A DNA stretch of 64,000 bases from Gammaproteobacteria bacterium (GTDB lineage Bacteria > Pseudomonadota > Gammaproteobacteria > Steroidobacterales > Woeseiaceae). The translations under genes were made by a program, and so were the position numbers. Positions 14,404 through 44,610 of the stretch are shown here, one piece after another (position 1 is the first letter of the stretch; every line of letters starts with the position of its first letter). The notes beneath the pieces are model-generated. The model was given only the letters and a program-made list of their open reading frames with translations. It had not been told where the DNA came from and did not search any database. The stretch covers positions 62,001-126,000 of the forward strand of contig JAHZJK010000023.1 of the NCBI GenBank assembly GCA_022600955.1, in the 5' to 3' direction.

Positions 14404-14786
14404 GAGAAAGTCGGAGTCAGTCAGACAATCGCTGTAGTTCGCTATAGAGGAAAGTCCGGGCTCCTTCGGACAGGGCGCCAGGTAACGCCTGGGGGGCGTG
14501 AGCCCATGGAAAGTGCCACAGAAAATATACCGCCTGTATCGGCCTTGGTGCCGTAACAGGTAAGGGTGAAAAGGTGCGGTAAGAGCGCACCGCGCGACTG
14601 GTAACAGCTCGCGGCACGGTAAACCCCGCCCGGAGCAAGACCAAATAGGGGAGTAAGCAGGTTCGGCCTGCACCGCCGGTTCCGAGCGGACTCCCGGGTA
14701 GGTTGCTTGAGGCCGCTGGTGACAGCGGTCCCAGATGAATGATTGTTCCAGACAGAACCCGGCTTATTGCTGGCTCCGGCTTTCTC
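14404..14786 (+). ncRNA. rnpB: RNase P RNA, bacterial type A
   Basis: This is the catalytic RNA that trims tRNA 5' leaders. Universally conserved blocks are present in order: GAGGAAAGTCCGGG (14447-14460), GCCAGGTAACGCCTGGGGGG, GGTAAGGGTGAAAAGGTGCG, TAAGAGCGCACCGCGCG, CACGGTAAACCCCGCCCGGA, GATGAATGATTG and ACAGAACCCGGCTTA. The terminal P1 helix can be drawn as 14404-14420 pairing with 14770-14786 over 17 positions including G-U pairs, which sets the ends. A TAGAAT at 14390-14395 is a plausible -10; the -35 is weak. A T-rich stretch follows 14786. Confidence 0.97.
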
Positions 14787-34115: not shown

Positions 34116-34131
34116 GGTGACCCCGGTCACC
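34116..34131. promoter_or_regulatory. Operator-like palindrome GGTGACC-CC-GGTCACC
   Basis: A perfect 7-bp inverted repeat with a two-base centre lies 38 bases upstream of the DciA-like start and about 45 bases before the riboswitch aptamer, in the divergent promoter region. Its symmetry and spacing suit a dimeric regulator. No known factor is assigned. Confidence 0.5.
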
Positions 34132-34175
34132 CTTCGCGGGGCCTTGCCTTGTAATGATTTCCGACATTATGCATA

Positions 34176-34268
34176 GTTTCGCAACGATAAAGGCATACCC
34201 GTTGAAAGGCGGGGTCGCAAAACCACCGGTCTAAGGGCGAAATCCTAGGACAGCGGGGCTACCGAAGT
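34176..34268 (+). ncRNA. Cyclic-di-GMP-I (GEMM-I) riboswitch aptamer
   Basis: The conserved GEMM-I blocks occur in order and at the right spacing: AAAGGCATACC (34190-34199 region), a GAAA-capped stem (CCCGTT-GAAA-GGCGGG), GTCGCAAAACCACCGGTCTAA (34214-34234 region), a second stem (GTCTAAGG / CCTAGGAC), and AGCGGGGCTACCGA (34252-34265). This matches the Vibrio Vc2 aptamer nearly block for block. The C of AGCGGGG and the G of the early AAAGGC correspond to the ligand-recognising C and G. A possible promoter (TTGTAA at 34149, CATAGT at 34172) precedes it. It lies in the leader of the M23 gene. The 5' boundary is approximate. Confidence 0.93.
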
Positions 34269-34385
34269 GAGCAGGTACAGCAAGTTGAATACAACTCTAA
34301 TAAGTGAGCGCGGCTCAATAATCCGCGACTTCGGAACTTGCATGACGAATAAGCAAATACTCTTGACGCACTTGAGGCGTACTCG
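34269..34385 (+). promoter_or_regulatory. Probable riboswitch expression platform upstream of the M23 gene
   Basis: After the aptamer come 117 bases with foldable parts. ACTTCGG (34328-34334) is a perfect complement of CCGAAGT (34262-34268), the 3' edge of the aptamer. A CGCGG/CCGCG hairpin (34309-34327) sits between them. Near the start, ACGC (34366-34369) and GCGT (34377-34380) frame the Shine-Dalgarno GAGG (34374-34377). This suggests control of translation or mRNA folding; no terminator with a U-tract is seen. Confidence 0.5.
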
Positions 34386-35318
34386 ATGAATGTCGTAATT
34401 TTTGGCAAGGGGTTCGGAAAACCCCGGCAAGTAAACCTGTCCGGCGTGACTGCCGGTTTAGGTGTTGTTGCTGTTGTCGGCGGCATTATCGGTATTGGAT
34501 TTCTGGCAGGATCCTGGCACGCAGCGCGTACCGGATCCGGTATTAGCAATTCCGAGTTGGGCGGAATTACCGCGCAGCTGGAATCGCAACGCGATGGTAT
34601 TGATGCGATTCGCCAGGAAAACGAAGATACACTTGACGCGCTGTCAATCCGCATTGCGCAGATGAACGCGCGCGTCATTCGACTCGACGCTCTGGGCCGT
34701 CGCCTGACTGAAATGGCAGAGATCGAAGACGGTGAGTTTGATTTTGATTCGGACCCTGCAGTCGGTGGTCCGGAAGAGCCAATGGCTGCCGGATCGAATG
34801 TTGCTGTTCCGGAAGTTCTCGAGGCGATGAGTTCCCTGAATGCGCAGCTGAGTAATCGTGAAGCACAGCTTAATGTGCTTGAAGGCGTACTCATGAATCA
34901 GAACCTGAGTGACCGCGTCTATCCTCAGGGTCGACCTGTCAAAGCCGGTTGGCTCTCGTCATACTTCGGGAAGCGCACGGACCCGTTCACGGGCAAACCT
35001 GCGAACCACACCGGAATCGACTTCGCGGGCAAGCACGGCGCCGAGATAGTCGCTGTTGCCGATGGCGTGGTGACCTGGTCGTCCGACCGATATGGCTACG
35101 GCATAATGGTCGAAATCAATCATGGCAACGGCTATTCAACTCGCTACGCCCACAATTCAGAGAATCTGGTCGCTGTGGGTGATGAAGTACGCAAGGGCCA
35201 GGTCGTCGCTCTGATGGGCAAGACAGGGCGCGCCACGGGCCCGAACCTTCATTTTGAAGTGTTGCAAAATGGCCGCCGCGTCAACCCGGTCAAGTTCATA
35301 CGCGATTCCTCCAAGTAA
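34386..35318 (+). CDS. Membrane-anchored M23 (LytM-type) peptidase
   Basis: This is a predicted periplasmic peptidoglycan endopeptidase or amidase activator. The 310 residues have one N-terminal membrane helix (about 21-43), a coiled coil (about 56-112), a linker, and a C-terminal LytM domain (about 183-305). Zinc ligand candidates are His208 and Asp212 (NHTGID) and His289 (GPNLHFEV); His256 (YAHN) is present. The first histidine of the usual HxH is Asn287, so catalysis may be weakened. The gene lies directly upstream of secA, the secM position of enterics, and is led by a c-di-GMP riboswitch. ATG 34386 has GAGG eight bases upstream. Confidence 0.88.
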   Translation: MNVVIFGKGFGKPRQVNLSGVTAGLGVVAVVGGIIGIGFLAGSWHAARTGSGISNSELGGITAQLESQRDGIDAIRQENEDTLDALSIRIAQMNARVIRLDALGRRLTEMAEIEDGEFDFDSDPAVGGPEEPMAAGSNVAVPEVLEAMSSLNAQLSNREAQLNVLEGVLMNQNLSDRVYPQGRPVKAGWLSSYFGKRTDPFTGKPANHTGIDFAGKHGAEIVAVADGVVTWSSDRYGYGIMVEINHGNGYSTRYAHNSENLVAVGDEVRKGQVVALMGKTGRATGPNLHFEVLQNGRRVNPVKFIRDSSK

Positions 35319-35474
35319 CCCGGCTGTCCCGCAAGAATCACGAGAGTTTTCGGCCCCGGCCGAGGGTCCTTGTGAATGCGAAAAACGCCCATAAATCGCC
35401 TGATTAGATAGTTAATGTCGCCGCAAAAGCTATAGAATAGCGGCCTTTGTTTGACCGTATCCTTAGGAGCCTCA

Positions 35475-38360
<2,886 letters not shown>

Positions 38361-42403: not shown

Positions 42404-43291
42404 CTAGAACATCGCGTCAATGTAAGCGTTCTTGATCGACTCACCCCACATCATCGTTATCCAGCCAGCGGCTGCGAGGTAGGGACCAAATGGGATAGGC
42501 ACAGTGCGGTCCTTGCCACGAAATACAATCATGGCGATATTGATTGCGGCACCCACAGCGGCGGACATCAGGATAATCATGGGTAGCTGCTGCCAGCCAA
42601 GCCAGGCGCCAAGCGCGGCGAGTAACTTGAAGTCTCCGTAGCCCATACCGTCCTTTCCGGTGACGAGCTTGAACGCCCAGAAAACGCTCCAGAGACTCAG
42701 GTAACCGGCCATAGCGCCCGCAATGGCGTCGACCGGGGATATGAACAGCATTGTCGCGCCATTCATTGGATGGAACAGGCTCATCGCAAGGCCAAGCCAC
42801 ATTAGTGGCAGGACTATCGAATCGGGAATCAGCTGCGTATCGGCATCTATCATCGCAATCGAGACGAGCGCAAGCGTCAGCACGATGGCCATGATGGCCT
42901 CCCACCCCGGTCCAAAGTACCAGGCACAAACCGTGCTCAGGATCGCCGTCATGAACTCGACCAGCGGGTAGCGGGCCGAGATAGATGCGCCACATTTTGC
43001 GCACTGACCCTTTAGGAGCAAGTAACTGATCACCGGAATGTTCTGCATGGCGGTGATCATCGTGCCGCAAGACGGACAGCGGGAACGGGGTACGACGAGA
43101 TCGAATCGACCTTCGGGCAGTTCAGACTCCGGTGGCGTCTTGACAAGTTCGTCAGCCTGTTCGCGCCACTCACGTTCCATCATTATCGGCAGGCGATGAA
43201 TGACAACGTTCAGGAAGCTGCCGAGCAACAGTGTGAATGCAAACACCACTGCCGTAAACGCGACAGCTGATTCACCTAATAATTCGATCAT
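42404..43291 (-). CDS. pilD: Type IV prepilin peptidase/N-methyltransferase PilD
   Basis: PilD cleaves the leader of type IV prepilins on the cytoplasmic face of the inner membrane and N-methylates the new Phe. The 295 residues include the zinc-binding cytoplasmic loop Cys72-x2-Cys75 and Cys97-x2-Cys100, needed for methylation, and the aspartic protease residues Asp149 (MIDADTQ) and Asp220 (GYGDFKL). Substrates here are the two pilins at 46.5-47.6 kb. GGAG precedes ATG 43291. A terminator hairpin lies between pilC and pilD, so separate transcription is likely. Confidence 0.96.
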   Translation of the reverse strand: MIELLGESAVAFTAVVFAFTLLLGSFLNVVIHRLPIMMEREWREQADELVKTPPESELPEGRFDLVVPRSRCPSCGTMITAMQNIPVISYLLLKGQCAKCGASISARYPLVEFMTAILSTVCAWYFGPGWEAIMAIVLTLALVSIAMIDADTQLIPDSIVLPLMWLGLAMSLFHPMNGATMLFISPVDAIAGAMAGYLSLWSVFWAFKLVTGKDGMGYGDFKLLAALGAWLGWQQLPMIILMSAAVGAAINIAMIVFRGKDRTVPIPFGPYLAAAGWITMMWGESIKNAYIDAMF

Positions 43292-43318
43292 TCCAGGTCT
43301 CCGCTGGTGCCGGAACGC

Positions 43319-43359
43319 AAAAAAACAAAACGGCGTCCGGAGTGTTCCCCGGACGCCGT
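43319..43359 (-). terminator. Intrinsic terminator after pilC
   Basis: On the minus strand an 11-bp perfect stem (43349-43359 with 43330-43340, ACGGCGTCCGG / CCGGACGCCGT, eight-base loop) is followed by TTTTGTTTTTTT. This is a strong Rho-independent terminator placed 28 bases before the pilD start. Confidence 0.92.
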
Positions 43360-43389
43360 CACATTGTATTGCAAACGATCTAAGGTTTC

Positions 43390-44610
43390 TTAGACGACTG
43401 CGCCGAGTTTGAAGATAGGCAGGTACATGGCGACGACAAGTCCGCCAACGAGTACGCCTAGAATGGCCATAATCATTGGCTCCAGCAAACTGGAGAGATT
43501 ATCCACAGCGTTATCGACATCCTCTTCGTAGAAGTCGGCGACTTTTGCTGACATGTCGTCGAGCGAGCCGGATTCTTCACCGACTGCGATCATCTGGATA
43601 ACCATATTGGGGAACAGGTCGATATTTTCCATTGCCTGTTGCAGGCGTTGACCCGTTGCAACTTCATCCCGCATTTCCAGCACGCCTTTTTCGTAGACGA
43701 TGTTGCCCGTCGCACCGGCGACAGACTCAAGTGCTTCTACGAGAGGTACACCTGCCGCGAACATTGTGGACAAGGTACGCGCATAACGAGCGATGGCAGC
43801 TTTTTGAATGATTGGCCCAATAATCGGCAGCTTCAACATAGTCCTGTCTAGAAACTGTTGAAACTGTCGTGAGCGTTTCTTGAAATAGATAAATGTCGCG
43901 ACAGCGCCACCGATAATCAGGCCAATGTAGAGTCCGTTGGATCGCACAAAGAAAGACAGGTCGATAACCATGCGTGTAAAGCTCGGCAAGTCGGCGCCAA
44001 AGCCCTGGAACAGGTCCTCAAAAGACGGAATTACGAAGATCAACAGGATGGTCGTAACTACCAGGGCGACAACCAAGACTGCCGCCGGGTAGGTCAGCGC
44101 CTTCTTGATCTTCTTCTTGATAGCCTCAGTTTTTTCTTTATAGGTCGCGATCTTGTCGAGCAATGACTCGAGCGCACCGGCTTGCTCGCCCGATTCAACC
44201 AGGTTGACAAACAGGTCATCGAAATAGAGTGGGTGCTTCGCAAGAGCTTCAGCGAGTGACGAGCCGCCTTCGACGTCGCCCTTGATCGTCAGAATAAGTT
44301 TCTGCATGGCGGCATTTTCGTGGCCGTTGCCAACGATCTCAAACGCTTGTACCAGGGGAATACCTGCGGCCAGCATCGTGGCGAGCTGACGACTGAATAT
44401 TGCGATATCAGAGGTCTGGATTTTGCCGCCACCAGCAAACAGGCCCTTGCTCTGTTTCTTGATTCTGGTCGGCAGTACACCTTGGCGGCGCAGCTCCGCA
44501 CGAACCTGCGCCTCATCGTTGGCAAGACTCTTGCCTTTGATTTTCTTGCCGTTTCTGTCGGTTCCTTCCCACAAAAAAGGCGTGTTGCTCATCACTGCTG
44601 ATTCAGCCAT
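43390..44610 (-). CDS. pilC: Type IV pilus inner-membrane platform protein PilC
   Basis: PilC is the polytopic platform on which PilB and PilT act. The 406 residues contain two T2SSF domains (about 70-195 and 275-400), each ending in membrane helices. Typical motifs are FSRQLATMLAAGIPLVQAFEI, LVESGEQAGALESLLDKIA and the second-repeat YARTLSTMFAAGVPLVEALE and VGEESGSLDDM. ATG 44610 has GGAAGAG just upstream; ATG 44592 is possible. It lies 28 bases after pilB. Confidence 0.96.
   Translation of the reverse strand: MAESAVMSNTPFLWEGTDRNGKKIKGKSLANDEAQVRAELRRQGVLPTRIKKQSKGLFAGGGKIQTSDIAIFSRQLATMLAAGIPLVQAFEIVGNGHENAAMQKLILTIKGDVEGGSSLAEALAKHPLYFDDLFVNLVESGEQAGALESLLDKIATYKEKTEAIKKKIKKALTYPAAVLVVALVVTTILLIFVIPSFEDLFQGFGADLPSFTRMVIDLSFFVRSNGLYIGLIIGGAVATFIYFKKRSRQFQQFLDRTMLKLPIIGPIIQKAAIARYARTLSTMFAAGVPLVEALESVAGATGNIVYEKGVLEMRDEVATGQRLQQAMENIDLFPNMVIQMIAVGEESGSLDDMSAKVADFYEEDVDNAVDNLSSLLEPMIMAILGVLVGGLVVAMYLPIFKLGAVV

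Follow-up and report, generated by a model that had tools for sequence, protein, structure and literature searches.

Riboswitches of the c-di-GMP-I (GEMM-I) class have been described with expression platforms that act through terminators or through access to the ribosome-binding site, and their targets are motility, chemotaxis and adherence genes, as set out in the available part of PMC6366702. A riboswitch coupled to a relay upstream open reading frame (uORF) is known from one experimental case, uPPE2 of M. tuberculosis (PMC11260477, likewise available in part). There, a B12 riboswitch gates the translated uORF uPPE2 ahead of ppe2 and works as an OFF switch. PPE2 depends on translation of the uORF, mainly via termination-reinitiation at AUGA. 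Its uORF site is masked by an anti-TIR stem, and no obvious Shine-Dalgarno sequence is described for ppe2 itself.

The DNA analysed here, which we call the window, is a stretch of 64,000 nt from a Gammaproteobacteria bacterium of the Woeseiaceae (GCA_022600955.1, contig JAHZJK010000023.1, positions 62,001–126,000, forward strand). It contains the arrangement that defines a relay uORF, namely a short ORF at the edge of a riboswitch aptamer whose stop codon overlaps the start of the next gene. The features of the locus are:

34161..34179, + strand: conserved promoter-like element CCGACATTATGCATAGTTT, immediately 5' of the aptamer (leader conservation)
34182..34266, + strand: c-di-GMP-I (GEMM-I) riboswitch aptamer (RF01051, 77.2 bits, model positions 1–87 of 87)
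34255..34258, + strand: GGGG in the aptamer 3' strand, proposed as Shine-Dalgarno sequence for the relay ORF, whose GTG follows after 8 nt (paired in the Rfam structure)
34267..34389, + strand: unannotated relay ORF, GTG to TGA, 40 aa, VSRYSKLNTTLISERGSIIRDFGTCMTNKQILLTHLRRTR (sequence and leader comparison)
34280..34286, + strand: 5' helix arm GCAAGTT within the relay ORF (pairs with 34335–34341)
34335..34341, + strand: 3' helix arm AACTTGC within the relay ORF (RNAalifold and pairing in relatives)
34374..34377, + strand: GAGG, the M23 Shine-Dalgarno sequence, lying within the 3' end of the relay ORF (spacing 7; duplex in the window –5.6 kcal/mol)
34386..34389, + strand: ATGA, in which the M23 start codon and the stop codon of the relay ORF overlap (leader comparison)
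34386..35318, + strand: gene of the M23 (LytM-type) protein, 310 aa (PF01551, 114 bits)
35433..35440, + strand: conserved –10-like element TAGAATAG in the M23–secA gap (pattern in 63/76 loci)
35475..38360, + strand: secA (SecA Pfam domains)

The aptamer and its gene context

Searching the whole window with cmscan against Rfam 15 at curated thresholds returned two matches, an RNase P RNA (bacterial class A, 14413–14781, 321 bits) and the c-di-GMP-I riboswitch RF01051. The latter is a full-length match to 34182–34266 on the + strand, scoring 77.2 bits where the cut-off is 35 (E 2e-13). A preliminary description of this DNA had placed a GEMM-I riboswitch at 34176..34385 on the strength of its conserved blocks and had proposed the RF01051 covariance model as a check. 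The blocks are present and the score clears the curated cut-off. The aptamer part of that interval stands as far as 34266, but the remainder to 34385 belongs to a short open frame (34267–34389).

In the RF01051 alignment, model position 12 is G and position 83 is C, the ligand-contact bases of the c-di-GMP type. We take these positions to be G20 and C92 of Vc2; a G-to-A change at the Vc2 G20 position marks cGAMP variants. The ligand is presumably c-di-GMP, as assigned by family membership. The source genome has two c-di-GMP-I matches in total, one of them at the M23 leader, along with 24 GGDEF and 14 EAL matches, which makes a c-di-GMP signal plausible here. Pfam matches bear out both the lpxC, dciA (opposite strand), M23 and secA neighbourhood and the type IV pilus genes noticed earlier in the region, the latter as pilD- and pilC-type genes at 42404–44610.

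To cover close relatives, we took the best 80 of 336 M23 protein relatives together with their flanks; two of them (L074 and L082) lack upstream DNA. We call this set Woeseiaceae, many of its records being so labelled and others just Gammaproteobacteria, Proteobacteria, Chromatiales or, once, Deltaproteobacteria. A c-di-GMP-I family match lies just 5' of the M23 start in all 78 loci with upstream DNA among these best 80, labelled RF01051 in 53 and RF03167 (the GGC variant) in 25. In the RF03167-labelled leaders L005 and L009, tetraloop (GAAA) and receptor (CTAAGG) are both altered; GAAA is retained in other M23 leaders with that label, for example L003 and L028.

A wider sample comprised 40 M23 leaders out of 69 genomes of the order with a match, chosen after setting aside the source genome and others of its genus, many within-genus near-duplicates, contig-start matches and the weak f12 set. 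Rfam models find the aptamer in 26/40 at E ≤ 0.01, with 22 of these at or over the curated cut-off, and a self-built model finds it in 27/40, once weakly (L116, 22 bits). The aptamer-bearing leaders come from ten families (f1, f2, f3, f4, f6, f7, f9, f10, f11 and f15), while those sampled from f5, f8, f14 and f16, and part of those from f6 and f10, lack the aptamer. Among other orders of the class, where 40 of 61 further matches were sampled and searched with the self-built model only, none of the 40 M23 leaders carried the aptamer. This distribution indicates that the aptamer is old at the M23 locus, and the GEMM-I aptamer originally proposed ahead of M23 is both supported and conserved across much of the order. 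Comparing the leader query with plasmid records gave three matches, covering 20–30% of the query.

GEMM-I copies vary in number and placement. Inside one genus the copy number is very uneven, from 1 (G004 and G010) to 17 (G026), and some copies stand in close pairs (G046:C28:111525/111764 and G059:C27:85314/85558). One close locus, L046, has a second c-di-GMP-I match on the opposite strand (1516–1629, 54.5 bits), roughly 1.2 kb 5' of its M23 aptamer.

Directly before the aptamer, a motif around CATTATGCATA(G/T)T recurs in 78/79 leaders; taking the aptamer as 87 nt, it lies approximately 3–6 nt ahead of it in 69 of 78. The motif occurs once in the source genome, the other five places having three mismatches. 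The element was not a hit in a sigma-70 scan, and its place and conservation suggest that it is a promoter. Further upstream, the divergent dciA/M23 promoter region contains a palindrome, GGTGACCCCGGTCACC, at 34116–34131, and a GGTCACC or GGTGACC half-site is found upstream in 35/79 leaders. The gap between M23 and secA (35319–35474) measures 156 nt. The –10-like element within it, seen in 63/76 loci, indicates that secA probably has its own separate promoter, and the idea that c-di-GMP is linked to SecA supply is accordingly weak.

The M23 protein resembles solved LytM/M23 chains (6muk, 3slu, ShyA (6ue4) and EnvC (6tpi)) in its M23 domain (PF01551, 114 bits against a cut-off of 28.7), and residues 189–303 align with 6muk. 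It differs from these chains in its HxH motif, where Asn replaces the first His in 79/79 Woeseiaceae proteins (GPNLHFE; GPNLHFEV in the window), leaving the active-site motif incomplete; three aligned solved relatives have GPHLHY. The second His is present in 79/79 and HxGxD was read in 77/79. In other orders, 13/15 orthologues keep the first His and two could not be read. Order loci with the aptamer have Asn in 13 cases and His in 11 (three not read), and those without it have Asn in 11 and His in two; a tie between aptamer presence and loss of the catalytic His, which we considered, is not supported by these counts. Peptidoglycan hydrolase activity, which the preliminary description had offered as one of two roles beside that of an activator, is doubtful on this motif, and "wall remodelling" is a term to be used with care.

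A short frame between aptamer and M23

The GTG at 34267 begins with the first base past the end of the aptamer model, and the TGA at 34387–34389 overlaps the M23 ATG at 34386 as ATGA. The M23 gene had been proposed as the riboswitch target; the direct target appears to be this relay ORF, which was overlooked at the time.

We scored a leader as positive when a start codon at the aptamer edge was followed by an in-frame stop no more than 12 nt from the M23 start. This layout is present in 77/79 close leaders, against 4.2 expected with freely shuffled linkers and 23.4 expected when only the middle was shuffled and the start zone and gene start were held fixed. The frame that ends at the M23 overlap has a median open length of 47 codons, against 11 and 13 in the other frames (79 Woeseiaceae leaders). 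Among the 77 positives, the start codon is GTG in 50, ATG in 16 and TTG in 11, offset from the edge by 0 in 64, +2 in 4 and +3 in 9. Their stop codons end at +4 in 67, +1 in 9 and 0 in one, as counted from the M23 start, and the ORF is 40 or 41 codons long in 62/77. The first start codon stands at 2 mod 3 from M23 in 77/79, at distances of 92 to 149 nt. Median identity of the linkers is 55%, and 27 of 28 clusters formed at 70% identity contain a positive member. Two close leaders fail: L077, and L067, in which the frame stops 17 nt short of the M23 start.

Across the order, the layout is found in 19/27 aptamer-bearing leaders and in 9/10 families, against 2.2 expected, and 0 of 200,000 simulations reached 19; these odds are indicative, as the simulations treat leaders as independent, which they are not, and the windows were chosen after viewing the leaders. 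The count rose from 17/27 to 19/27 when the start window was widened from +8 to +12 and L130 and L141 were given corrected starts. With fixed ends and the narrower window it is 17/27 against 7.1 expected. Start offsets in the 19 positive leaders range from –2 to +11, and 16 of them lie between –1 and +4. One positive leader, L147, passes with just 11 codons. Eight leaders fail (L120, L128, L129, L139, L141, L146, L148 and L149); in L146 the frame reads in-frame into M23, which may itself begin at the aptamer edge there.

Two controls bear on how easily such a layout arises. Under a looser measure, an ORF of at least 25 codons ending at M23, 5/20 class loci without an aptamer are positive, and the same measure gives 20/27 in the order leaders and 77/79 in Woeseiaceae. 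The layout is also not forced by the aptamer consensus, since 20 of the 34 rows scored as non-M23 GEMMs have no start codon at the aptamer edge (L101 was not readable). The 14 rows with an edge start codon include L103, really an M23 leader, and four that stay open for at least 60 codons (L002, L249, L251 and L266), with the ORFs of L251 and L266 running off the end of the stretch.

One of these rows is the second c-di-GMP-I aptamer of the source genome (L002, 1501–1590), where the ATG of a 450-codon ORF takes the same spot, AGCGGAGTTACCAAT being followed immediately by ATG, behind AGCGGAG. Its aptamer strand, AGCGGAGTTACC, directly precedes that ATG and is a possible direct ribosome-binding site. 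L251 (1–90) has the same arrangement, its ORF running off the stretch after approximately 385 codons.

The peptide shows no comparable constancy. With five codons trimmed from either end, and with 20 disjoint pairs of close relatives out of 66 eligible, we counted 112, 123 and 127 substitutions at codon positions 1, 2 and 3, and 100 silent changes where random placement predicts 92.6; there is thus no excess of silent changes in the relay ORF in these pairs. Between families, the peptides look unrelated and range from 11 to 90 codons. Among close relatives the N-terminal part is alike. In the closest 26 leaders, however, several third codon positions are near-invariant while second positions vary, which points to conservation of nucleotides. 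None of five relay peptides has a Pfam match above cut-off; there is a single match below it (E 0.12), and a known domain was rejected. On these comparisons, the reading frame is conserved and its protein product is not.

This pattern weighs on two explanations that give the peptide a role. A ribosome-stalling regulatory leader peptide, SecM- or attenuation-like, could add a second signal on top of the c-di-GMP switch. The secM gene of enterobacteria stands between lpxC and secA, as does the leader here, and both this position and the similar N-terminal parts would suit such a peptide. Silent and replacement changes that fall about as chance predicts, unrelated peptides of widely differing length, and nucleotide rather than amino-acid conservation in the closest 26 make it very unlikely. 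A functional microprotein would account for the near-constant length in the close set, but with amino-acid selection not seen in the 20 pairs, unrelated sequence in other families and no Pfam domain in the five peptides, we find this reading scarcely credible.

Leader structure and the proposed route of control

The aptamer 3' strand, AGCGGGGCTACCGAA, carries the GGGG and is paired with the aptamer 5' strand in the Rfam structure. In 13 leaders scored, the duplex of CGGGGC/T with the anti-Shine-Dalgarno sequence is worth about –5 kcal/mol. Since GGGG stands 8 nt before the GTG and is paired within the aptamer, we propose that c-di-GMP locks the relay ORF site. The second aptamer of the source genome, with an ATG at the corresponding spot, speaks for this proposal.

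A probable explanation of the locus is a translational OFF switch working through the relay ORF, in which c-di-GMP gates loading of the ORF and its translation feeds M23. The M23 mRNA would begin with a canonical c-di-GMP-I riboswitch whose expression platform involves no terminator and no hairpin covering the M23 start; instead, the aptamer 3' strand GCGGGG would double as the ribosome-binding site of the relay ORF. With c-di-GMP bound, the strand would be locked in the aptamer and ribosomes would not load (OFF). Without c-di-GMP, ribosomes would load, translate the ORF of approximately 40 codons and stop at ATGA on the M23 start, to be handed to M23 via termination-reinitiation or coupled initiation. 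The relay peptide would have no function of its own, the act of translation being what selection keeps. The OFF direction, the translation of the ORF and the dependence of M23 on it are inferred from this arrangement. The aptamer, the place of the ORF, the stop-start overlap, the recurrence in 9 of 10 sampled aptamer-bearing families and the lack of any sign of amino-acid selection are read from the sequences themselves. Against the proposed OFF switch, the model predicts that GGGG is already mostly paired without ligand, at 19% unpaired on average over 79 leaders.

We considered conventional platforms as well. An intrinsic terminator was rejected, as scanning the leader's + strand revealed no terminator-like site and TTTT is present in 9/79 linkers. 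Concealment of the M23 ribosome-binding site by structure was likewise unsupported, the M23 Shine-Dalgarno sequence being predicted 35% unpaired against 28% for the secA site. With normal spacing and no greater occlusion than at secA, M23 could be initiated directly, which counts against the relay.

Two helices were examined as switch elements. The GCAAGTT/AACTTGC helix keeps a run of 5 pairs in 26/26 close relatives, with weak covariation (RNAalifold, term –0.85). Helices from the place of GCAAGTT exceed shuffles in 36/79 leaders; the helix is thus solid in the closest 26, but we rejected it as a general one. A second possible pairing in the window joins CCGAAGT, 3' of the aptamer, to ACTTCGG. 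Only 8/26 relatives keep 5 consecutive pairs of it, and it was rejected as a general switch helix.

These elements are what an ordinary translational riboswitch would draw on, in which leader structure acts on the M23 ribosome-binding site and the frame is incidental or just protects against Rho. The good M23 Shine-Dalgarno sequence, the CCGAAGT/ACTTCGG pairing in the window and the GCAAGTT/AACTTGC helix kept in close relatives all fit this reading. It is nevertheless unlikely, given the poor retention of CCGAAGT/ACTTCGG, the predicted accessibility of the M23 site relative to that of secA and the frame that runs from an edge start to a stop overlying the start of M23 in 77/79 and 19/27 leaders. 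The same CCGAAGT/ACTTCGG competitor, present in the window and some relatives, could instead make c-di-GMP an ON signal that frees the start of the small ORF from competing structure. We regard this as quite unlikely, as the competitor is kept in so few of the 26 relatives and the proposed ribosome-binding site sits in the very aptamer strand that the ligand should stabilise.

Beyond the single locus, the relay ORF may be a content-free expression platform of this riboswitch class in much of the order, with its start, openness and stop-start overlap selected and its sequence free, a generalisation on which we are evenly divided. If true, such riboswitches would control the delivery of ribosomes: what they target first would be translation itself, of a disposable ORF, and it would be a mistake to class their leaders as non-coding expression platforms. 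A gene for a cell-envelope protein would also be tied to c-di-GMP, in a lineage represented here mainly by metagenome-assembled genomes. The signature, an edge start codon combined with a stop codon that falls on the start of the following gene, is cheap to read from genomes and usable in other riboswitch classes, so how common relay ORFs are behind riboswitches is directly testable.

Comparison with described systems

In the covered part of the open-licence PMC literature, we came across no c-di-GMP riboswitch that is followed by an upstream ORF or that precedes an M23 or secA gene. With RF01051 and its variant RF03167 (c-di-GMP-I-GGC), the leader shares a full-length covariance match and the conserved blocks. 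It differs from the c-di-GMP-I systems described in the available part of PMC6366702 in that the aptamer edge abuts a relay ORF ahead of an M23 gene.

The position also invited an analogy with the secM sensor ahead of secA. Whereas a SecM-type leader is a conserved arrest peptide before secA, the small ORF here precedes M23 and bears no mark of amino-acid selection, and the gap before secA has a promoter-like element of its own; nothing seen here supports the analogy.

The closest likeness is to ppe2/uPPE2 (PMC11260477, as far as the available portion goes), where a riboswitch is also followed by a short ORF whose stop overlaps the next start (AUGA there, ATGA here). The two differ in ligand and aptamer, and whereas an anti-TIR stem masks the uORF site in ppe2, the proposed site here lies in the aptamer strand itself and M23 has a Shine-Dalgarno sequence. 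Unlike the ppe2 case, the layout described here recurs in nine families with unrelated ORF sequences. The ligand class, the use of an aptamer strand as the proposed ribosome-binding site, the target gene and this nine-family recurrence with a drifting ORF thus appear to be new.
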